DNA from: a virus
DNA length: 21,318 nucleotides
IMG/VR virus record: IMGVR_UViG_3300014886_000009
Coordinates: 1 to 21,318 of that record
Strand: one strand, 5' to 3'
The first letter of the stretch is position 1. Every line of letters begins with the position of its first letter. A model generated the notes under the pieces. That model was not told the DNA's origin. It made no database searches and worked only from the letters and a program-made list of their open reading frames with translations. The translations under genes and the position numbers were made by a program. Shown here in pieces: positions 4,469 to 21,211 of the stretch.

Positions 4469-5002
4469 ATGAGGATCACGCCGACGAAAGACAAGGTAGG
4501 AGGGTTTGAGCTTCCTCCGGAGGGAGTATGGGAAGCAGCGGTACAGGTGGTAGAGGAAACGTTCAGGAGTGAGGAGGAGCGGGCGGAGTTTGATGCCCTG
4601 AGCGATGCGGAGAAGAAGAAGGCACCTGTTAACAGGATCAGGGTGCAGTTTGGCCTTCTGGAGGGGGAAGGGGAGGGATTGCCAGTCTCTCACTTCTTCA
4701 GCCTGAGGGGCAAAAAGGGAATGGCGGATCTGCTGAAGCTTCTCTATGTCACAGGAGTGCACAAGGCAATTGAGAAGAAGTATGGACTGCCTCCCATAGA
4801 AGAGGGATGGGAAGACAATGTGATTAGGTCGAGGAAGATGTTGAATGAGCTTTCCACCTCCTTGGTGGGAGCCACCTGCAAGGTGGAGATAGAGCACATA
4901 GAGCGGAACGATCGGGTTTTTGCCAACATAGTGGACTTTTTGGAGGGTGGTTCCGCAGGGCCCAAGGTGGAGAGTGGGGAAGAAGAGGACGAAGGGTGGT
5001 AA
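4469..5002 (+). CDS. DUF669-like candidate single-stranded-DNA-binding protein
   Basis: 177 residues. Beta strands alternate with charged loops (FELPPEGVWEA, NRIRVQFGLLEG, LVGATCKVEIEHI, VFANIVDFLEGG), which suggests an OB-like fold as in phage DUF669 proteins. The last residues form an acidic tail (GEEEDEGW) ending in an aromatic residue. That resembles the protein-recruiting tip of bacterial SSB, which ends in an acidic stretch plus Phe. DUF669 genes typically neighbour AAA_24 ATPases and Cas4-like nucleases, as here. The start has AAAAGGAGGTG upstream. The fold assignment is from pattern and context, not alignment. Confidence 0.7.
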   Translation: MRITPTKDKVGGFELPPEGVWEAAVQVVEETFRSEEERAEFDALSDAEKKKAPVNRIRVQFGLLEGEGEGLPVSHFFSLRGKKGMADLLKLLYVTGVHKAIEKKYGLPPIEEGWEDNVIRSRKMLNELSTSLVGATCKVEIEHIERNDRVFANIVDFLEGGSAGPKVESGEEEDEGW

Positions 5003-5025
5003 TCAAGCCGGAGATAAGGAGGGAG

Positions 5026-5487
5026 ATGCCTACTTTAGGGCTTCTCCCTCCCCCCGATGAGGGGTTCTGGATCGTGGTAGATACAAGAGAGCAGGCTCCC
5101 TATTTTAAGGATTACTCCCAGGTGGTAGTAAGGAAACTGGATGTGGGAGATTACAGCCTCAAGGGATTTGAGAAGGAAATAGCAATAGAGCGGAAAGGGG
5201 TGAATGATTTCCTGACATGCGTTGGTAAGGAAAGGGAACGGTTCCAGAGGGAGCTGGAGAGAATGGAAGGGTATAGATTGAAGGCTCTGGTAATAGAGGG
5301 CACAGAGGAAGACATCTATACCTCTGGATTCTCTCAGCTCCCGGCGGCCACCATCCGCTGGTCTCTTATGTCTTTTATGATCCGCTATGGGCTTCATGTT
5401 ATACTTGCACCAAGGAGGCAGGCGGAAAGGTGGGTTTTTGATATGCTTTATTATTACTATACCAGGAAGAGGAAAGGAACTCTGTGA
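5026..5487 (+). CDS. ERCC4/XPF-type nuclease
   Basis: About 153 residues from the ATG at 5026. The nuclease core shows VDTREQ (about 18-23), VGDYSL (about 40-45) and AIERK (about 53-57). These are the conserved acidic and basic residues of ERCC4/Mus81-type endonucleases, including the ERK catalytic triplet. A following RERFQREL helix is also typical. Family members cut branched or flapped DNA, so it may resolve recombination or replication intermediates made by the neighbouring ATPase and SSB candidate. The start is uncertain: the ATG at 5026 has AAGGAGGG only about 3 bp away, and a GTG at 4996 overlaps the previous stop. Its last base overlaps the next start (TGATG). Confidence 0.88.
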   Translation: MPTLGLLPPPDEGFWIVVDTREQAPYFKDYSQVVVRKLDVGDYSLKGFEKEIAIERKGVNDFLTCVGKERERFQRELERMEGYRLKALVIEGTEEDIYTSGFSQLPAATIRWSLMSFMIRYGLHVILAPRRQAERWVFDMLYYYYTRKRKGTL

Positions 5488-6959: not shown

Positions 6960-7227
6960 TGAGAAGAAGACTATATCTGAGATTCTTGAGGACTTGGGGA
7001 TTGATGAGGATAAGCTGGTGGATAAGTGTGAGAGGCTTAGACAGGAGAGTGCCAAATGGACTGATATAGCATTGGGATTACAGGAGATGGAAGAGCTGAG
7101 GGGAAAGGAAGAGTGGGTTAAGATACTTGTTGCCTTGATCTTTGGGTTTTCTCTGGGTTGGCAGAGGGGGTTCCAAGAGGCCATCGCAGAAAGTCTCTTG
7201 AACAGGGTAGTGGAGGTGGTCCAGTGA
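6943..7227 (+). CDS. Hypothetical helical protein
   Basis: 94 residues. The N-terminal half is charged and helical (SEILEDLGIDEDKLVDKCERLR). A hydrophobic stretch at about 61-73 (ILVALIFGFSLGW) may be a short membrane or packing helix. The start overlaps the previous gene by 17 bp, with GGAGGGAAG upstream. The stop overlaps the helicase start (GTGA), so coupling to the helicase is likely. No family was recognised; it could be a helicase partner. Confidence 0.7.
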   Translation: MEGRFSEKKTISEILEDLGIDEDKLVDKCERLRQESAKWTDIALGLQEMEELRGKEEWVKILVALIFGFSLGWQRGFQEAIAESLLNRVVEVVQ

Positions 7228-8732
7228 ATGTTCCTTTTTCCAAGTTCCAAGAGCTATATCCACAGCAGAAGGAGGCCCTGGAGTTCATAGCCCGCTCTGA
7301 GGCTCCTGTTATAGGGATATCGGCTCCTACAGGATCAGGAAAGTCGCTCCTCGGCATGATGGCCTCCGAAGTGCTTAGAACTCACAAGCAGGTGTACCTT
7401 TGCTCTTCTCGTCACCTCCAAGATCAGTTACACCGAGATTTTCCCGAGGCGGTGGTGCTCAAAGGGAGGAGGAATTATCCATGCCTTCGGTTCAGTGCTT
7501 TTGATCTCACGGCTGAAGAGTGTGTGAAGGAAGGGTGTGAGCATGTGGATCGGTGTCCCTATGAGGAGGCTAAAAGGAGGGCCAAGGCGGCAAGGTGGAA
7601 GGTGATGAATTTTGCCTACTGGTTGCTTGAGGCTAACTATGTGGGGGCGTTTTCCAACCAAGACTTGGTAATCATAGACGAAGCGGATCTGCTGGAGGGG
7701 GCACTTACTGACTTTGTTTCCCTCAGCATTTCCCGTAGGAAGATGGCCAAGTTGGGGCTTAAGATGCCCAAGTTTAAGACCAAGTGGGAAGCCTTCTTGG
7801 ACTGGGCAAGGGGAGCTAAGGGGGTGGTGGAGGAAAAGGCAAGGGCCCTGAAGGTGGAAGGGCAGGAAGACCCGGAGGTGATGAAGGAATATGTGAGCTA
7901 CAGGAGGCTTGTACAGAAGCTGGATTTGCTCATCAAGTGCCTTTCTCCTTCCTGGCTTATGGAGGATACAGGGTACAGGATCACCTTCAAGCCCTTGTGG
8001 TTGGATAGGGAATTGGTGGACAGGTTTCTTCTCAGGCATTCTCAGAGGTTCCTCCTTATGTCTGCTACTCTTCCTCCCAAGCCTATCTTGTGTTCCCTTC
8101 TGGGCCTCAGGCAAGGGGAAGTGGATTACCTGGAGCTCCCCTCTTCCTTTGACATTTCCAATAGGCAGGTAGTCTATAGGCCTGTGGCAAACTTGAATAA
8201 GGAAAATCTGGATGGGCAGTTGGGAAAGCTTATAGGAACAATTAAGGACATATTGAACAGGCATGAAGATCAGAGGGTGCTTATTCACTCTGTATCCTAT
8301 TCCCTTGGGACCAAGCTGTACGAAAGCCTCTCTTCCCTCTCCCGCCCTGTATTCTTCCACAGGACTTCAGAGGGCAAGCGACAGGCCATGGAGAGGTACA
8401 TGAGCCATCCCGATGCTGTGATCATAAGCCCATCTCTGGAAAGGGGTGCAGACCTTAAGGATGACCTGTGCCGTGCGATCGTGTGGGTTAAGTGTCCTTT
8501 CCCGAGCTTGGGGGACAAGTTCACCTCCCTCCGGTTTTATTCCTCCCGCTTTGGGCGCCTGTGGTACAAGTACCAGGCGGCCTACACCCTTGTGCAGGGA
8601 GCAGGGAGGGGGGTGAGGCATAAGGAAGACTGGGCAACTACCTACATCCTTGATGGGCAGTTTGAGAGGCTGCTGAGGGATAGGGTTGGGCTATTTCCCA
8701 GGTGGTTCAGGGAGGCTGTGGTATGGGAATAA
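7224..8732 (+). CDS. DinG/XPD-like iron-sulfur superfamily 2 helicase
   Basis: 502 residues from the GTG at 7224, chosen because GGAGG lies 7 bp upstream and it overlaps the preceding stop as GTGA; in-frame starts further upstream would run deep into the previous gene. Motif I is APTGSGKS (34-41). Four cysteines between motifs Ia and II (C87, C100, C105, C111) match the 4Fe-4S domain of XPD/DinG. Motif II is DEAD at 152-155. LLMSATLP corresponds to motif III, and QGAGRGVR (458-465) is motif VI. The family unwinds DNA 5'-3'. It is shorter than E. coli DinG (about 700 residues), as usual in phages. It probably serves replication or recombination. Confidence 0.9.
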   Translation: MNVPFSKFQELYPQQKEALEFIARSEAPVIGISAPTGSGKSLLGMMASEVLRTHKQVYLCSSRHLQDQLHRDFPEAVVLKGRRNYPCLRFSAFDLTAEECVKEGCEHVDRCPYEEAKRRAKAARWKVMNFAYWLLEANYVGAFSNQDLVIIDEADLLEGALTDFVSLSISRRKMAKLGLKMPKFKTKWEAFLDWARGAKGVVEEKARALKVEGQEDPEVMKEYVSYRRLVQKLDLLIKCLSPSWLMEDTGYRITFKPLWLDRELVDRFLLRHSQRFLLMSATLPPKPILCSLLGLRQGEVDYLELPSSFDISNRQVVYRPVANLNKENLDGQLGKLIGTIKDILNRHEDQRVLIHSVSYSLGTKLYESLSSLSRPVFFHRTSEGKRQAMERYMSHPDAVIISPSLERGADLKDDLCRAIVWVKCPFPSLGDKFTSLRFYSSRFGRLWYKYQAAYTLVQGAGRGVRHKEDWATTYILDGQFERLLRDRVGLFPRWFREAVVWE

Positions 8733-14452: not shown

Positions 14453-14485
14453 AGGGGTAGGAAAAGCCCAAGGGAGGTGTTAGGT

Positions 14486-14701
14486 GTGGGATCAAGGAGG
14501 AAAAGGGGGCGTTCGGGAGACCGGGTTGTGGGAAGGTCCCGGGGAAGGTGGGGAGTTGTGGGAGGGATTGTTGGCTTCGGGCGCAAGAGGGGGTCGGTTG
14601 TGGGGATTCCTGCGTGGGTTCCCCCTGCTTTCCGTGATCCGATGATGCTTTTGCCTTCTGATATAAGGAGGACGAGGAAGCCGAAGTTAAGGAAAACATA
14701 A
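14486..14701 (+). CDS. Arg/Gly-rich basic protein
   Basis: 71 residues from the GTG at 14486, with GGGAGG 8 bp upstream; an earlier GTG at 14477 lacks a spaced site. Residues 1-40 are Arg/Gly/Val/Ser-rich (GSRRKRGRSGDR, VVGRSRGRW). The C-terminal third (IPAWVPPAFRDPMMLL) is hydrophobic, then strongly basic again (RRTRKPKLRKT). Such low-complexity proteins can arise by chance in G-rich DNA, but the ribosome binding site and position support a gene. It stops where the PP-loop gene starts. It may belong with the basic proteins at 19945-21211. Confidence 0.5.
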   Translation: MGSRRKRGRSGDRVVGRSRGRWGVVGGIVGFGRKRGSVVGIPAWVPPAFRDPMMLLPSDIRRTRKPKLRKT

Positions 14702-15358
14702 ATGGTAGAAAAAATAATTAGTTTTGGAGCCGGGGTTAATTCAACAGCAATGGTTCTTTTGCTTTATGAGCAGGGAAAGCGATTCCCAATTATATTTGCT
14801 GATACAGGTTGTGAATGGCCTGAGACTTATGAGTTTTTAGCTTTGTTTAACGACTATCTTCTTAAGACGTGGGGAACTCAGGTTTGTAGGGTACAGAGTG
14901 AAAGGGGTAATATGTATCAGTGGTACTGGGAAAGGCGCCAGATTCCTTTTATAAAAGCAAGGGTTTGCACAGGGATGTGGAAACTTGAACCTATTGCAAA
15001 AGCTTTCCCGGGGGTAAAAGTGCATTTGGTGGGCATCAGTATTGATGAGGTACACCGGGTCCGTCCCCGTGGCAGATATGCCCAACTGGAATATCCGCTA
15101 GTAGAGATTGGTATGACAAGGCAGGACTGCAAGGCGGTCATTAAGCGCCATGGGCTACCGGTACCAATCAGATCGGGTTGTTTTATCTGTCCTTTTCAGT
15201 CACTCAGAGACTTTACAAAACTGGCTGAGCTTCATCCAGACCTTTTTAATAAAGTCGTTGCTTTAGAAGAGCGATCAGGGAGGTGGTTGAAGTATGAAAA
15301 ACCTCTCAGAAAACTGGTGAATACACAGCAGCTAAGTTTGCAGATGGAGGTGAATTAA
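14702..15358 (+). CDS. PP-loop ATPase of the PAPS-reductase-like family
   Basis: 218 residues. The PP-loop SFGAGVNST (7-15) is followed by a strand ending in ADTGCEWPE (33-41), as in phosphoadenosine-phosphosulfate reductase and related adenylating enzymes. Cys89, Cys143, Cys160 and Cys163 (the last two in GCFICPF) may hold a metal or iron-sulfur cluster. The family activates a carbonyl or sulfate by adenylation; phage members may modify nucleic acid. It starts directly after the preceding stop with only AAGGAAAA upstream. The AAGGAGGTGT of the next gene follows it. Substrate unknown. Confidence 0.85.
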   Translation: MVEKIISFGAGVNSTAMVLLLYEQGKRFPIIFADTGCEWPETYEFLALFNDYLLKTWGTQVCRVQSERGNMYQWYWERRQIPFIKARVCTGMWKLEPIAKAFPGVKVHLVGISIDEVHRVRPRGRYAQLEYPLVEIGMTRQDCKAVIKRHGLPVPIRSGCFICPFQSLRDFTKLAELHPDLFNKVVALEERSGRWLKYEKPLRKLVNTQQLSLQMEVN

Positions 15359-15378: not shown

Positions 15379-15648
15379 ATGGCACGTGCCAGGCGCAAGA
15401 GGATAAGCCCCTTCAAGTTCACCGCCACCGAGCGCTACTACGCCAAGGGCCGGGGCCGCAAGAAGCTTCCCCGATCTGCTTTCCTCCTCCCTTCCAAGCG
15501 CAAATTCCCTTACAAGACCGCTTCAGGTGCTGTTTCCTGCCGGATGCTCAAGGCGGCTATCACGAGGGCGGCCCAGCATGGCTATGCGGCTGTGAGGGCG
15601 AAGGCCAAGAGGCTTTACCAGCGCTACTGTGCCCGGAAGGCGGCTTAG
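15379..15648 (+). CDS. Small basic phage protein with LPxSAF...RKFP motif
   Basis: 89 residues, very basic and rich in Arg and Lys. It contains LPRSAFLLPSKRKFPY followed by a TRAAQHGYAAVRAKAKRLYQ helix. Similar motifs (LPDSAFA, then RKYPI and a helical stretch of Ala and Arg) occur in phage structural or maturation proteins; I use this only as a family hint. TAAGGAGGTGTTTCC precedes the ATG. It is followed by a structured element and the large terminase. Strong positive charge suggests DNA contact. Confidence 0.75.
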   Translation: MARARRKRISPFKFTATERYYAKGRGRKKLPRSAFLLPSKRKFPYKTASGAVSCRMLKAAITRAAQHGYAAVRAKAKRLYQRYCARKAA

Positions 15649-15749: not shown

Positions 15750-17462
15750 ATGAGGATTCCCGATTTCAGGCGCTTCGAGGTTTACGCTCAGTTCCTGAAG
15801 GTCAGGCACAAGACCGAGAGGCGGCTTATTTCTTTCCATCCTGACAACTGGTACCCGGCTCAGAGGGCCTTGCACCAGACCATCGAGGCCATAAGGGGCA
15901 GGGGACAGCCGGTGTGGATTCTGCTTCTGAAAGCCCGACAGGAGGGATGCTCGACCTTTACCACCGCCCGGATCTTCCACGCCACAGCCACCCAGCGGAA
16001 CACCAATAGCCTGATCTTAGCCGACAAGAAGGATCGGGCAGAGTATATCTTCGAGATGTGCAAGACCTTCTACGATCACCTACCTGATGTGCTCAAGCCG
16101 ACTCGCAAGTATAGCAACAAGAAGGAGCTGGTTTTTGACACCCGGGATGGCCATGGCCTGAAGTCGGGCATCTACATTGCCACAGCCCTTGACCAGTTCA
16201 CGGGCCAGGGGATGACGCTCCATAACGTTCACGTGTCCGAGGCCTCCTCATTCCCTTACCTCGGCCTTGTGTTCACCACTCTCCTGCCTGCTATTCCTCC
16301 CACCTCCGACACGATGGTGATAGTGGAGACCACCGCAAAGGGGGCCGGCACCGAGTTTCACGAGGAGTGGCAGAAGGCAAAAGCAGGCCAGAGCGTTTTC
16401 GTCCCCGTATTCTTCCCCTGGTTCATCCATCCGGAGTACCGCAAGAAGCCACCAGAAGAAGAGCTGAGGCGGGGAAAGCTGATCCTGACCGAAGAAGAAA
16501 GGCGCTTGGTCAGGCAATTTCACCTTGATGATGAACAAATCTACTGGCGCAGGTACATGATCGAGCAGGTCTACCGGGGAGACGAGGAGAGCTTCGCCCA
16601 GGAATTCCCCGCCACAGACGAAGAGGCCTTCATCGTCGCCGGCAACTGCTACTTCGACAAAGCCCGCCTCAAGGAAGCACTTGTCAACTGCCGTGATCCT
16701 GTGAAGCAACTGGAGGTGGATGCAGCTCTTCGGGGACCCTACGATCTCGTCTACCGCCTCAGAGAGCATGACCGGGGCCGGCTCTGGGTATGGCATGAGC
16801 CTCAGAAAGGGCACAGGTACCGCTTGGGAGTAGATGTAGCAGAGGGCAAAGGGCAGGACTACTCGGCAATAGAAGTCTTTGACGAAACCACTATGGAGCA
16901 GGCGGCTGAGTGGATGGATAACACCGTTGACCCTATCTCATTCGCCCGCACCATAGTTGCCATTGCCAAGTGGTACAACGAAGCTGTGGTCGCCATTGAG
17001 ATCAACGGCCCTGGGCTTGCCACTCAGAACGAGGCTAAGCGGTTCTATTACAACTTCTACTTCCACCAGTACATAGACCGCTTCACCAACCGCCGGACGG
17101 ACAAGCTCGGATGGCTCACGACTCCCACTTTCAAGCGCTATCTCCTGAGCTACATGGAACACGTAATTGACCACGGAGTCTGGAAGTTTAATTCCTCCCG
17201 GCTTGTGGGGCAGTTGATGACTTTTGTGCACTCGGGAGATCTGGCAGAAGCGGCGCCAGGTACCCATGACGACCTCTGTATGGCGGCAATGATTGCTCTC
17301 TACACTGCCTATCAGGACGGCACCATCTTTTGGGACAAACAGGACACAGGAGGTGAGAGAATAATAGACCAGAAGCGGGACATCCTTGACCTTTCTCCTC
17401 CGCCGGATTATGATAGTTGGTGGGAGGAAAAGGAACAGGAAGAGCACTGGTTAGCTTTGTGA
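15750..17462 (+). CDS. terL: Large terminase subunit
   Basis: 570 residues. ATPase: a deviant Walker A at 61-69 (KARQEGCST), Walker B-like VHVSEAS at 160-166 with Glu164, and coupling motif ETTAKG at 193-198. Nuclease: Asp362 (GVDVAEGKGQD), Glu417 (AIEIN) and Asp507/508 (THDDL), the RNase H-like catalytic acids. The enzyme cuts concatemeric DNA and pumps it into the procapsid through the portal. The ATG follows GCGGAGGCACT and overlaps a TGA. It lies just after the folded element at 15655-15722. Assignment is secure. Confidence 0.95.
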   Translation: MRIPDFRRFEVYAQFLKVRHKTERRLISFHPDNWYPAQRALHQTIEAIRGRGQPVWILLLKARQEGCSTFTTARIFHATATQRNTNSLILADKKDRAEYIFEMCKTFYDHLPDVLKPTRKYSNKKELVFDTRDGHGLKSGIYIATALDQFTGQGMTLHNVHVSEASSFPYLGLVFTTLLPAIPPTSDTMVIVETTAKGAGTEFHEEWQKAKAGQSVFVPVFFPWFIHPEYRKKPPEEELRRGKLILTEEERRLVRQFHLDDEQIYWRRYMIEQVYRGDEESFAQEFPATDEEAFIVAGNCYFDKARLKEALVNCRDPVKQLEVDAALRGPYDLVYRLREHDRGRLWVWHEPQKGHRYRLGVDVAEGKGQDYSAIEVFDETTMEQAAEWMDNTVDPISFARTIVAIAKWYNEAVVAIEINGPGLATQNEAKRFYYNFYFHQYIDRFTNRRTDKLGWLTTPTFKRYLLSYMEHVIDHGVWKFNSSRLVGQLMTFVHSGDLAEAAPGTHDDLCMAAMIALYTAYQDGTIFWDKQDTGGERIIDQKRDILDLSPPPDYDSWWEEKEQEEHWLAL

Positions 17463-18232: not shown

Positions 18233-19948
18233 TTGGATCTCAACCAGTATTTGGATAAGATTTACCAGGAAGCTAAGTTCGCAAAAGAGGAAGTGGCCAA
18301 GAACTATGACCGCTGGCTCAACCATTACAGAGGGCAATTCTGGCCCTCCAAGCGCCCGGACTGGCGGGTTTCAGCGGTTATCAACCACTTGGCAGAGCTG
18401 ATCCAGCGGGAAGTAGCTTACCTCACCGACAGCCGCCCTGTGATCCGTGTGGTAGCGAGGAACGACCATCTCCAGCCTGTCGCCGAGGTGCTTGAGGACA
18501 TCATCGCCGCCCTCTGGGAAGAGCGCAACTGGCAGCAGAAGCAGCAGGAACTCCTCATCTTAGCTGCCATCTTCGGAGCTGCCTTTGCCCGCTGTGTTTG
18601 GAACCCCCAGTTAGATGACGGCAGGGGCGATATTGACATCGTGGTAGGCGATCCCCGGGTTTACCTTGTTGATCCTTTCTGTCTCCGGGCCAACCAGCTG
18701 GATGAAGCTGAGTACATTATCCACGAGTATGTTGTTCCCAAGAGCGTCCTTGACGAGCAGTATCCCCACTTGGCTTCCAAGATAAAGCCTACTTATGGGG
18801 CAGAAGAGGAAGAGAAAGGCTTCAAGCACTTCCTCCGCAAACTCCTCTTTGGCACAGAGAAGGAGCAAAGGGCCATTCTCCCCCGTTGCCTTGTGCAGGA
18901 GTTTTGGATCAAGGACAGGAGCCGGGTGGAGCTTGAAGATGGCCAATCAGTGCGCAAGTATCCAGGAGGCAGGCACATTGTCCGTGTTGGTCACCTCATT
19001 CTCAAGGACGAGCCCAACCCCTACATAGACGAGCGCTTCCCAATTGACATGTTTGACTGGAGCTTCAATCCCAATAGTGCTTGGGGAATTTCCGAGGTTG
19101 AGTATCTCCATAGCCTCCAAGAGATGTACAATAAGCTGATGGCTATCATAGTGGAGCATGCCATTCTCACCTGCAATGCCGTCTGGATTGGCGAGGAAGA
19201 TGCTCTAAGCCCTACTGCATGGACTCGCCTGACCAACAAACCAGGAGCTATCGTGAGAGTGCGCCCGGGTAAGACCTTGCGCCGGGAGCCTCCTCCACCT
19301 CTTCCCGCCTACATCCAGAATGCAGTCAAGTACCTTGAAACTCAGATGCAGGTGTTAAGCGGAATGACGGATGTAATGCATGGAGAGAGAGGAGCACTGA
19401 CCTCAGGGGTGGCCATTGAGTCGCTCCAGATCGCCGCTCAGGCTATCATCCGCCTCCGTGCCCGTTCCTTTGAACAATTCCTTGCCCGCATAGGCCAGAA
19501 GCTGATATCAAGGATCTTTCAGTTCTACACCACGGACAGGGTTATCAAGATCCTCGGGCCAGATGGAAACATCAGGGAATACGAGTGGGTGAGAAGGCAA
19601 ATCATGGACCCCATCCTCAAGTACTACGAAGGCGACTACCGCCAGAAACTTCATTCCGCCTTCCGGGATCTCCAGTTCAAGGTGGTCGAAGGCTCCTCTC
19701 TCGCCATGAACAAGATCCAGAAGGTCATGATGGCCATTACCTTCTACCGCATGGGTGTAATAGATGAAGAGGCATTGCTGGAGATAGCCGAGTGGCCCCA
19801 CAGGAAAGAGATTTTGGAGAGGAAAGCCCAGATGATGCAGCAGCAACAGGGCAGGCCCACCAAGGTGGTAAAAGTCCCAGAGCCCTCAAGGCGAATGGAA
19901 GCTGAGATGAGGGCAAAAGGAATGTCAGGAGAGGTGTTGAAGCCATGA
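18233..19948 (+). CDS. Portal protein
   Basis: 571 residues, a normal length for a portal. The N-terminal region has RWLNHYRGQFWP and NHLAELIQREVAYLT, and the middle reads ISEVEYLHSLQEMYNKLM and SGMTDVMHGERGALTSGVAIESLQ, typical of phage portal wing and stem regions. The C-terminus is charged. Portals form a dodecameric ring at a capsid vertex, through which the terminase packages DNA. The start is TTG at 18233, with GAGGAGGTGTCTT upstream and no better ATG. Its last four bases overlap the start of the first tiny basic protein (ATGA). Confidence 0.9.
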   Translation: MDLNQYLDKIYQEAKFAKEEVAKNYDRWLNHYRGQFWPSKRPDWRVSAVINHLAELIQREVAYLTDSRPVIRVVARNDHLQPVAEVLEDIIAALWEERNWQQKQQELLILAAIFGAAFARCVWNPQLDDGRGDIDIVVGDPRVYLVDPFCLRANQLDEAEYIIHEYVVPKSVLDEQYPHLASKIKPTYGAEEEEKGFKHFLRKLLFGTEKEQRAILPRCLVQEFWIKDRSRVELEDGQSVRKYPGGRHIVRVGHLILKDEPNPYIDERFPIDMFDWSFNPNSAWGISEVEYLHSLQEMYNKLMAIIVEHAILTCNAVWIGEEDALSPTAWTRLTNKPGAIVRVRPGKTLRREPPPPLPAYIQNAVKYLETQMQVLSGMTDVMHGERGALTSGVAIESLQIAAQAIIRLRARSFEQFLARIGQKLISRIFQFYTTDRVIKILGPDGNIREYEWVRRQIMDPILKYYEGDYRQKLHSAFRDLQFKVVEGSSLAMNKIQKVMMAITFYRMGVIDEEALLEIAEWPHRKEILERKAQMMQQQQGRPTKVVKVPEPSRRMEAEMRAKGMSGEVLKP

Positions 19949-20079
19949 GAAGGAAGAGATGTCCAGGTGGCAAGATCAGGTCTAAGGGCATGGGTAGAGG
20001 CCTTGGTATCGGTAGGGGCAGAGGCCCCATAGGAATTCCTATTGGCAAGAAGAGGAAGGCTGCTAAAAGAGCAAAATGA
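19945..20079 (+). CDS. 44-residue Lys/Arg/Gly-rich protamine-like protein
   Basis: MRRKRCPGGKIRSKGMGRGL is the start; the rest has GIGRGRGPIG and ends KKRKAAKRAK. By count it has 9 Arg, 8 Lys and 11 Gly in 44 residues and no acidic residue. GAGAGGTGTTGAAGCC precedes the ATG, which overlaps the portal stop as ATGA, and its own stop overlaps the next ATG the same way. This tight coupling supports a real gene despite the size. Likely a nucleic-acid-condensing or capsid-internal peptide; inference. Confidence 0.7.
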   Translation: MRRKRCPGGKIRSKGMGRGLGIGRGRGPIGIPIGKKRKAAKRAK

Positions 20080-20258
20080 ATCCTAAGCTACTGACCCCCA
20101 GAGATGTTGAGAAAATGATAGAGGAGGTGCGTGCCATTACCTCCCGTTATGGAGGGTGGCTTAAGCTTGAGAAGATTTACGAGAGACCTAATAGGCTTGA
20201 AAAGGTAGAACTGCATCTCCTCTTCAAACTGCCATATGGGGACAGACTAGAGGCTTGA
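20076..20258 (+). CDS. Hypothetical small protein
   Basis: 60 residues. A helix (PRDVEKMIEEVRAITSRYG) is followed by strands (LKLEKIYERP and KVELHLLFKLPYG). The balance of charges differs from its very basic neighbours. The start overlaps the preceding stop (ATGA); only a weak site is present upstream, so it depends on re-initiation. No family recognised. Confidence 0.65.
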   Translation: MNPKLLTPRDVEKMIEEVRAITSRYGGWLKLEKIYERPNRLEKVELHLLFKLPYGDRLEA

Positions 20259-20288
20259 CACTTGACATTGTGCTGAAGATGCTTTAAT
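20255..20288 (+). promoter_or_regulatory. Possible promoter with doubled TTGACA
   Basis: Two TTGACA boxes stand 1 bp apart (20255-20260 and 20262-20267). The second is 15 bp from TTTAAT (20283-20288), 5 of 6 to the -10 consensus. The spacing is short. It would transcribe into the terminator-like hairpin at 20324-20363 and the basic genes beyond. Confidence 0.35.
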
Positions 20289-20323
20289 CTCTTAGTAAGG
20301 CACAGGTAAGACATAACGCCGTG

Positions 20324-20363
20324 AAGGGGAAAGTTGCCTGTAGAGGGTAGCTTTCCCCTTTTT
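20324..20363 (+). terminator. Intrinsic terminator or attenuator in front of a basic gene
   Basis: AAGGGGAAAG (20324-20333) pairs with CTTTCCCCTT (20351-20360), 10 of 10, with a 17-base loop, followed by TTT. This has the form of a rho-independent terminator. It ends only about 6 bp before the ATG at 20370, so it may attenuate the downstream genes. Confidence 0.7.
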
Positions 20364-20369
20364 GTTGCC

Positions 20370-20660
20370 ATGGCTTTGAGTGCAGCGGAAAGAGCAAGGA
20401 GGCGCAGGTTGGCCAAGAGAGTCCTGCTTCCTGCCGCCATTCGTGCTGCAGGGCGAAAGGGGTTCTATGCCACAGCTATTGCTCTTGCCCGGCATACTGA
20501 CAGGATTTCCGATCCCCGCCGCCTTGCAGGATGGCTCAAGGCGCAGGCCCGGAAGCGGGGATGGCTCAGGCCTGAGCACATGCGCCGCTCAAGAAGTAAA
20601 AAAGTCAGACGCCTCAGGAGACAGTACCTCCGGGCAATGAGGCGTCTAGGAGTGAGGTGA
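20370..20660 (+). CDS. Very basic phage protein of about 96 residues
   Basis: From the ATG at 20370 it reads MALSAAERARRRRLAKRVLL. It continues with an Ala/Arg-rich helical part (AAGRKGFYATAIALARHTDR), a SDPRRLAGWLKAQARKRG stretch, and a C-terminus with RSRSKKVRRLRR. Arg alone makes up over a quarter. No ribosome binding site precedes the ATG because the terminator lies there. A TTG at 20409 with AAGGAGG 6 bp upstream could be the real start, giving a shorter product. The charge implies binding to packaged DNA or to a capsid component. The function is unproven. Confidence 0.7.
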   Translation: MALSAAERARRRRLAKRVLLPAAIRAAGRKGFYATAIALARHTDRISDPRRLAGWLKAQARKRGWLRPEHMRRSRSKKVRRLRRQYLRAMRRLGVR

Positions 20661-20665
20661 TAAAA

Positions 20666-20878
20666 ATGTCTAACGGTTGGGGTGCTTTCTTAGGTGGTCT
20701 CCTTGGTGGCCTTGGGGCTTATGGAGTGGCGAGGCTCCTGAGGAAGTGGGATCAAACCCAAAGGCAGAGATCCCGTACCCGCAGGCTTCCTCCCATTCCC
20801 CAGTGGCGGCCGCCAGAGTTGAGGTATTTGGGTAAGAAGTCCACGAGCTGGAGCAGGCGATGGCTAAGCGGAAGGTAA
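20666..20878 (+). CDS. Small Gly-rich membrane-anchored basic protein
   Basis: 70 residues from the ATG at 20666. The N-terminus is Gly-rich and hydrophobic (WGAFLGGLLGGLGAYGVARLL), as a membrane-inserting or amphipathic helix. The rest is basic with many Arg and Pro (RQRSRTRRLPPIPQWRPP). GTGAGGTGATAAAA precedes it, and the previous gene ends 5 bp upstream. Such a hydrophobic N-terminus with a basic tail might contact membrane or capsid and DNA. No family known to me. Confidence 0.65.
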   Translation: MSNGWGAFLGGLLGGLGAYGVARLLRKWDQTQRQRSRTRRLPPIPQWRPPELRYLGKKSTSWSRRWLSGR

Positions 20879-20988
20879 ACCGCAGGGCCTTGAGGCAGAT
20901 GAAGCAGAAGCGGGCCAGAGCCAATACCCAAAAGCGGCTTGAGGCACGCCTCGCCAAGAGGCGTCAGAAATCCAAAGTAAGGAGGTGA
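20860..20988 (+). CDS. 42-residue protamine-like basic protein
   Basis: MAKRKVNRRALRQMKQKRAR is followed by ANTQKRLEARLAKRRQ and KSKVRR. It has 12 Arg and 8 Lys in 42 residues and a single acidic residue. A long helix with basic faces is likely. The ATG overlaps the preceding gene by 19 bp, with GGAGCAGG upstream as a weak site. The sequence AGGAGGTGAG at its end is the ribosome binding site of the next gene. Confidence 0.65.
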   Translation: MAKRKVNRRALRQMKQKRARANTQKRLEARLAKRRQKSKVRR

Positions 20989-20994
20989 GAAGGG

Positions 20995-21093
20995 ATGGCC
21001 ACCAGAAGGCAGATAGCCGCTGCGAAGCGCAATATCAAGAAGGCTATCGCTGCTCGGAGGAAGCTTGGGCGCAATCCCAAGGGCAGGGGCTAA
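20995..21093 (+). CDS. 32-residue protamine-like basic protein
   Basis: MATRRQIAAAKRNIKKAIAA plus RRKLGRNPKGRG, with 7 Arg and 5 Lys in 32 residues and no acidic residue. The strong AAGGAGGTGAG site lies inside the end of the preceding gene, giving a tight translational link. An Ala/Lys-rich amphipathic helix followed by a flexible Arg/Gly tail is likely. Confidence 0.7.
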   Translation: MATRRQIAAAKRNIKKAIAARRKLGRNPKGRG

Positions 21094-21127
21094 TGGGTAG
21101 TCCCCAGAACACAAAAGGAGGTGTGTG

Positions 21128-21211
21128 ATGGCAAAAGCGAGGAAAGCTAAGAAGGGCCGCAAGAAGGTCCGCAGGGTGCGCAGGCGTAAGGCCGTAACCC
21201 GCATCATATGA
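21128..21211 (+). CDS. 27-residue Lys/Arg peptide
   Basis: It begins MAKARKAKKGRKKVRRVRRR and ends KAVTRII: 8 Arg and 7 Lys in 27 residues, over half of the chain, with no acidic residue. AAAAGGAGGTGTGTG is a near-perfect ribosome binding site. The composition is like eukaryotic protamine or adenovirus core peptide mu, which compact DNA; that is an analogy, not homology. It ends 7 bp before a hairpin. Confidence 0.75.
   Translation: MAKARKAKKGRKKVRRVRRRKAVTRII

Follow-up and report, generated by a model that had tools for sequence, protein, structure and literature searches.

What are very small, extremely basic proteins doing directly behind the portal gene of a tailed phage? The question is raised by the window analysed here, the complete IMG/VR virus record IMGVR_UViG_3300014886_000009 (21,318 bases), whose end falls just past a run of such genes. 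The original prediction had described five or six very basic proteins of 27 to 96 residues 3' of the portal and had suggested that they might be a DNA-condensing, protamine-like set, capsid-binding factors or packaging aids. We found the open reading frames (ORFs), starts and overlaps as described, and comparison with related phages revealed that a polycationic micro-gene at the portal-coat position characterises a wide phage lineage, in which selection acts on the charge and length of the peptide rather than on the order of its residues. The earlier interpretation is thereby partly supported overall.

All genes of the array lie on the plus strand. The first encodes a 44-residue basic protein (19945..20079; net charge +17, 39% Lys+Arg, no acidic residue, Gly/Arg-rich centre), whose start overlaps the portal stop in an ATGA motif. 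A second ATGA overlap, at 20076, opens a gene of the same run for a non-basic 60-residue protein (20076..20258, net +2), which is 85-97% identical in relatives with synonymous change saturated. It is followed by a 96-residue basic protein (20370..20660; net +28, 33% Lys+Arg, four acidic residues) and a 70-residue peptide with a glycine-zipper hydrophobic N-terminal half and a basic C-terminal half (20666..20878, net +13). The 3' end of the 70-residue gene is overlapped by the gene for a 42-residue basic protein (20860..20988; net +19, 48% Lys+Arg, one acidic residue), and the run closes with a 32-residue basic protein (20995..21093; net +12, 38% Lys+Arg, no acidic residue) and a 27-residue hyperbasic micro-peptide (21128..21211; net +15, 56% Lys+Arg, no acidic residue, no Ser and a single Thr) ending in the hydrophobic C-terminal tail TRII. 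Across the 27-, 32-, 42-, 44- and 96-mers, Lys+Arg content ranges from 33 to 56% and net charge from +12 to +28; for the four proteins of 27 to 44 residues the range is 38-56%, and the description of these four as mostly free of acidic residues was correct. Strong ribosome-binding sites had been claimed together with the ATGA overlaps, and good sites do occur in the window. In L003, a near-copy of the window (L numbers label the related contigs and loci that we compared with it), predicted Shine-Dalgarno duplex energies were -12.5 kcal/mol for the 44-mer, -13.4 kcal/mol for the 32-mer and -12.9 kcal/mol for the 27-mer (in the window, site AGGAGGT, 21116..21122, plus strand), whereas the 42-mer reached just -5.6 kcal/mol.

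Profile searches of Pfam, PHROGs and NCBIfam gave no significant match for the 27-, 42-, 44- and 96-mers, and the 32-mer matched only marginally a family of unknown function, phrog_20273 (E 0.0066); with that exception, none of these libraries holds the micro-peptides. Protein Data Bank (PDB) sequences, searched up to E 10 with the 27-mer and the 96-mer, yielded no match of weight, and no relatives of the 96-mer were found beyond the near relatives of the window. The 96-mer is predicted to be all-helical, its AlphaFold2 model consisting of five helices; the mean predicted local distance difference test score of 69.5 is insufficient for a search by fold. The glycine-zipper segment of the 70-residue peptide (GWGAFLGGLLGGLGAYG), with its basic tail, could belong to a small membrane or ejection peptide. 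A structured RNA in place of a peptide was rejected, the window having no Rfam match.

L002 and L003 carry the complete array, and L005 and L007 carry it in altered sequence; L006 has the first two genes, after which the contig ends. Ratios of nonsynonymous to synonymous change (dN/dS, or omega) were obtained from Nei-Gojobori counts, mainly for the window against L005 and L007. The 27-mer showed an omega of 0.03-0.07 (2-3 nonsynonymous versus 9-11 synonymous changes), the 44-mer 0.08-0.12 (0.06-0.12 when L003 is compared as well), the 70-mer 0.17-0.19 (0.06-0.19 over all comparisons) and the 42-mer 0.23-0.28. For the 96-mer, compared with L005 only, omega was about 0.1 (dS 0.72, dN 0.069), and 84 of 95 residues were kept. 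The 32-mer, with an omega of 0.58-0.68, is weakly constrained. The array genes are thus real and, apart from this last one, under purifying selection, in line with the earlier view that they are not noise. That view had also extended to two related basic genes further upstream. One of them, encoding an 89-residue basic protein upstream of the terminase gene (15379..15648, plus strand; phrog_16160, E 1.4e-5), is kept in six contigs at 85-100% identity and is related to the array by composition only; the other, at 14486 (ORF 14477-14701), was discarded, as its frame is broken in L003 at 91% DNA identity.

The genomic setting is that of a phage head module. The terminase large subunit (15750..17462, plus strand; phrog_2, E 1.6e-27; Terminase_6C, PF17289) is followed by a 571-residue portal protein (18233..19948, plus strand), which matched Pfam P22_portal PF16510 (E 1.2e-39) and the portal family phrog_156 (E 5.4e-54). 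With a PF16510 score of 136.8 against a cut-off of 26.1 bits, it is a P22-family portal. The window stops before any scaffold or coat gene. L002, however, has a portal and a peptide array identical to those of the window and runs on beyond the window end, first with a 40-residue ORF and then with genes that match the head scaffolding family phrog_3927 (E 1.7e-19) and the major head protein family phrog_9953 (E 1.4e-56). Because scaffold and coat genes follow the array in this order in L002, the basic peptides sit, as the original prediction had it, within the head-assembly block, and more precisely between portal and scaffold/coat. Omega of the portal, scaffold and coat genes was 0.01-0.05, except for the interrupted portal of L007.

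To see how far the arrangement extends, related conserved tiny basic ORFs were sought behind the portal, as had been proposed. We scanned IMG/VR with portal and coat profiles and obtained 115 loci holding both genes, which form 50 clusters at 90% coat identity. One micro-ORF rule was applied to all regions alike (ATG start, 15-45 residues, net charge of at least +6 and at least 0.28 per residue, ribosome-site energy of -7.5 kcal/mol or better). The portal-coat interval contained 35 micro-ORFs in 121 kb, in 31 of the 50 clusters, as compared to five in 445 kb of plus strand outside the interval and two in 566 kb of minus strand. The enrichment corresponds to a binomial p of 7e-19, with ORFs treated as independent although the clusters are related. 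Under a looser rule, 34 micro-ORFs were observed, whereas dinucleotide-shuffled intervals gave 2.4 on average and never more than 6. Translation is predicted to be strong, the median ribosome-site energy of the micro-ORFs being -11.6 kcal/mol versus -9.3 for coat, -8.7 for scaffold and -4.1 kcal/mol for portal genes, a comparison partly biased by the preselection of the micro-ORFs at -7.5 kcal/mol. Gene order and neighbours vary across the lineage, while the portal-to-coat position stays. The multi-gene set is confined to the immediate relatives of the window; most members of the lineage encode just one peptide, with a net charge of +6 to +17. A profile scan of genome contigs returned a single contig, from an Acidobacteria metagenome-assembled genome, which carries a 23-residue peptide of the second type described below. 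Two more hyperbasic micro-ORFs (MRKYTKKRQLKKRRIAHRMVRHRSRKRAMV and MRKGRKKMKMAKGHHIRHHSRKRSRKLA) lie 3' of the coat gene in L146 (12600-13000, about 5 kb past the portal end), and single ones of this kind are present in L148, L049, L051 and L043. We did not find a description of such peptides in an open-access library of papers, an absence that is weak evidence.

What is selected in these peptides is best seen in the cluster of L092, which contains nine different peptides of 21-23 residues, all with a charge of +10 or +11. Compared with L092, alleles of equal length have changed at 32-36 of their 66 nucleotides; in a simulation, 20 random changes lowered the mean charge to +4.6, and +10 or more was retained in 1.7% of cases. 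Since the charge stays at +10/+11 despite about half of the nucleotides differing, selection acts on charge and length rather than on residue order.

The micro-peptides fall into two main types. Type I, the type of the window's clade (L003, L013-L019, L021, L029, L030, L032 and L034), is composed of Lys, Gly and Arg and follows the pattern M[AP]-(K/R/G-rich)-[LVIM]-[IVM]-x0-2. A hydrophobic dipeptide was found within the last four residues of 13 of 13 type I cluster representatives (permutation product 10^-18.9), the hydrophobic fraction being 0.60 in the tail versus 0.06 in the body. The tail rule was framed after these 13 had been seen, and the three further tailed type I peptides from a later scan (MAKKGGGRKLGGGLGKGKGGKKGGVIVS, MAKGGGGRKLGGAVKAGGGKGGKKGGGVIR and MGKRKGSGRKGSSKKGGLIQ) are its only out-of-sample test. 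Such a C-terminal dipeptide is not expected of a plain polycation. Judged by its position, charge and tail, the 27-mer is the window's member of this lineage-wide type. Type II peptides, such as MRKGHKRKGHKRHGGRKSKREK, comprise 16-23 residues, and none of 12 has the tail. A third set, near type II, consists of peptides of 18-24 residues whose N-terminus is acidic or aromatic (MINFEVKNRRKKGRHGKR among them). On the portal tree, type I and type II each cluster strongly and each need only two changes; the tree scored L018 as "other basic", although its peptide, MARRHRGKRGRKRGHRRGRKMVV, belongs with type I.

We favour, tentatively and at somewhat less than an even chance, the explanation that the micro-peptide binds DNA inside the head, and that the type I tail serves for docking. 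The portal-scaffold-coat operon would yield these peptides abundantly in late infection, and they would be trapped in the procapsid along with scaffold and portal. There, the hydrophobic dipeptide of type I may dock on an inner-surface site of coat, scaffold or portal and leave the polybasic body free for DNA, so that the peptide would stay as, or act briefly as, a polycation on the incoming DNA. Packing of the first or innermost DNA turns could be eased in this way, and charge could be partly offset, in addition to what Mg2+ and polyamines usually contribute. The set would have expanded to five or six peptides in the subgroup of the window. The interval position, the ribosome sites, the purifying selection on the 27-mer, the charge retention, the tail and the precedent of phage T4 may all be taken in support of this explanation; presence in the head, DNA binding and docking are inferred. 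A bolder version has the whole P22-portal lineage depending on one dedicated polycationic micro-peptide of 15-45 residues per genome, an internal head component organising the packaged DNA, which would amount to a protamine-like class in tailed phages with two forms, one of them tail-anchored. We regard this version as doubtful.

Several observations weigh against a head-internal peptide. Assuming a 45-kb genome and the copy number of the coat protein in a T=7 head (415), one peptide of +11 to +15 would neutralise only about 5-7% of the DNA charge, which rules out a substantial contribution. In two sub-clades, L114/L117/L031/L053 and L118/L120, portal and coat belong to the same families but the interval has no basic micro-ORF, and the cultured coat relatives Mx8, Mx9 and ppBjS10J-1 are likewise without a convincing one. 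Because these phages do without it, the peptide is not essential to the head architecture: such heads can be assembled and packed with DNA in its absence. Moreover, only position and composition link type I with type II, and virion proteomics has been reported for no carrier phage, Tunturi 1 and 2 included (PMC11924767). Between portal and scaffold, L114 and L053 instead encode a Gly-rich, zipper-like acidic protein of about 200-230 residues.

Among the cultured relatives, a candidate peptide was found only in Tunturi 1 and 2. These podoviruses infect Acidobacteriota and have genomes of 63 kb and heads measuring about 64-73 nm (PMC11924767). Both contain an identical 22-residue ORF (MAKESKKEMKKEELKKKKSGKK) behind CATGCAGGAGGTTTTGAG, missing from the GenBank annotation and followed by an annotated 43-residue basic protein; gp5 of these phages begins MAGITMPKTPSK... 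The Tunturi 22-mer is less extreme than the micro-peptides (net +7, five Glu), its kinship being one of position only. Searching for cultured carriers by portal similarity returned nothing for the L092 portal, only Shocker and MetMV for that of L016, and only the distant Bacillus phages Pony and Palmer for that of L133. No convincing micro-ORF was found in Shocker, Brad, RHph_I3_18 or the TM7 phage, and BUCT555 has a 52-residue basic protein in place of the micro-peptide.

Position and ribosome sites also fit a transient assembly or packaging factor, absent from the finished virion, which would bridge portal, scaffold, coat or terminase and DNA while the procapsid assembles or packaging starts and then be lost. 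Its type I C-terminus might act as a ClpXP degron that clears a potentially harmful free polycation: the ends KKGLIA, KKGVIA, KRGLIV and AVTRII resemble C-terminal ClpX signals, which include LAA-COOH and RRKKAI-COOH (PMC7857536). The missing peptide in some sub-clades would also suit an accessory role. However, the tails VIQ, VIC, VIMS, VIVS and VIR are a poor fit to either ClpX signal, and type II lacks such a tail altogether. A simple counter-ion partnership with the scaffold, prompted by an EEEEEEEGE run in the L002 scaffold, is not supported, as scaffold charge is no more negative in carriers than in non-carriers (median net charge per residue -0.017 versus -0.026, p 0.10). Taken together, we consider a transient factor unlikely.

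Tiny peptides rich in Lys, Arg and Gly are also typical rRNA binders. The micro-peptide might accordingly be directed at the host or at RNA, binding the ribosome, the nucleoid or the transcription machinery in the manner of tiny basic ribosomal proteins, and be placed in the head operon for late expression. We hold this to be improbable, given that the 27-mer has no match of weight among PDB chain sequences, Pfam, PHROGs or NCBIfam and that the portal-coat position is kept lineage-wide while order and neighbours change.

True protamine-like condensation, with most of the packaged DNA covered by peptides that take the place of polyamines and ions, is what the DNA-condensing set of the original prediction would mean in the strict sense. 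The basic composition suits it, and in the window's subgroup the five basic proteins at 415 copies each would give about 42% neutralisation. The set is restricted to that subgroup, though, and the single-peptide phages that form the majority would need about 6,000-8,000 copies, or 14-20 per coat subunit (about 6,000 for the 27-mer and 45 kb); at 415 copies a single peptide covers 5-7%. The hydrophobic tail rule is left unexplained, and close lineages manage without the peptide; on these grounds we judge condensation of this kind quite improbable, and this part of the prediction was not borne out. Finally, strong ribosome sites, coupling and low-complexity composition might mean that there is no functional peptide at all: the ORF would be a side effect of spacers that are purine-rich and translationally coupled, or a leader that matters through being translated and not through its product. 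This very remote prospect is largely refuted by the excess of synonymous changes in the 27-mer, the charge held through sequence turnover, the conserved C-terminal tail and the failure of shuffled sequences to yield such ORFs. The remaining probability may belong to explanations that we have not thought of.

Several head genes of the lineage are interrupted. The portal ORFs of L005 (6001-8760) and L006 (1758-4239) contain an in-frame, intein- or intron-like insertion and encode 899 and 792 residues from internal starts, compared to 571 in the window; in L007 the portal insertion breaks the reading frame. LAGLIDADG-type ORFs, as found in homing endonucleases of group I introns or inteins, interrupt the coat genes of L019 (5381-6010) and L021 (5286-5954), and the coat profile was also matched only partly in L032, L033 and L034. 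In the window, Pfam matches point to a SLOG-family (YspA/DprA-like) protein in the early region (1364-1765), an ERCC4-type nuclease (4996-5487), an XPD-like helicase (7158-8732) and a phosphoadenosine phosphosulfate (PAPS)-reductase-domain protein (14702-15358) beside an HNH endonuclease.

To our knowledge, tailed phages are thought to pack their DNA without dedicated condensing proteins, the internal proteins of T4 being the best-known partial exception, with an unsettled role. A recurrent polycationic gene with a fixed place in the head operon and a charge under selection makes the role of a virus-encoded polycation in tailed-phage heads testable, and raises the question why close relatives manage without one. 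It also exposes an annotation blind spot, since many of the micro-genes have fewer than 30 codons and fall below the usual gene-calling length, the unannotated 22-residue Tunturi candidates being a case in point.

Compared with known systems, the module is closest in layout to that of P22, with a PF16510 portal, a phrog_3927 scaffolding protein and a phrog_9953 major head protein in identical order; it differs in that, as far as we know, the portal and scaffold genes of characterised P22 have no genes for peptides of this sort between them. The nearest precedent for a peptide in the head would, by analogy, be the T4 internal proteins, which are likewise small, basic and encoded with head genes. 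T4 internal proteins carry an N-terminal capsid targeting sequence that the prohead protease removes by cutting after Glu. No such sequence was found here, the 27-, 32- and 44-mers being without any acidic residue. IPI, IPII and IPIII, in a size range of about 8-20 kDa, are present at about 300-370 copies each, bind DNA at low salt and are core-associated (PMC9026906). The type I and II micro-peptides, by contrast, measure 16-36 residues, mostly lack Glu, have no detected sequence link to the T4 proteins and are putative head components. Protamine-like virion proteins of eukaryotic DNA viruses, such as baculovirus P6.9, are also tiny, extremely basic and virus-encoded. P6.9 is Arg/Ser-rich and regulated by phosphorylation (PMC6163548), whereas the phage micro-peptides consist mostly of Lys, Arg and Gly with few Ser (the 27-mer offers no Arg/Ser richness with phosphorylation sites), and they are unlikely to be numerous enough to neutralise a genome. 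Members of phrog_2423 and BUCT555 QQM14872.1 resemble the micro-peptides in being basic, having 40-56 residues and a strong ribosome site, and lying directly after the portal or in the portal-coat interval; they form definite sequence families and contain acidic residues, while the micro-peptides belong to no family and are shorter, with a higher density of charge. The micro-peptides may be viewed as a variant among the small basic peptides that tailed phages encode with their head genes: in this large, mostly uncultured group, evolution has kept one or more tiny genes, so far missing from annotations, whose product may be a charged component of the head.

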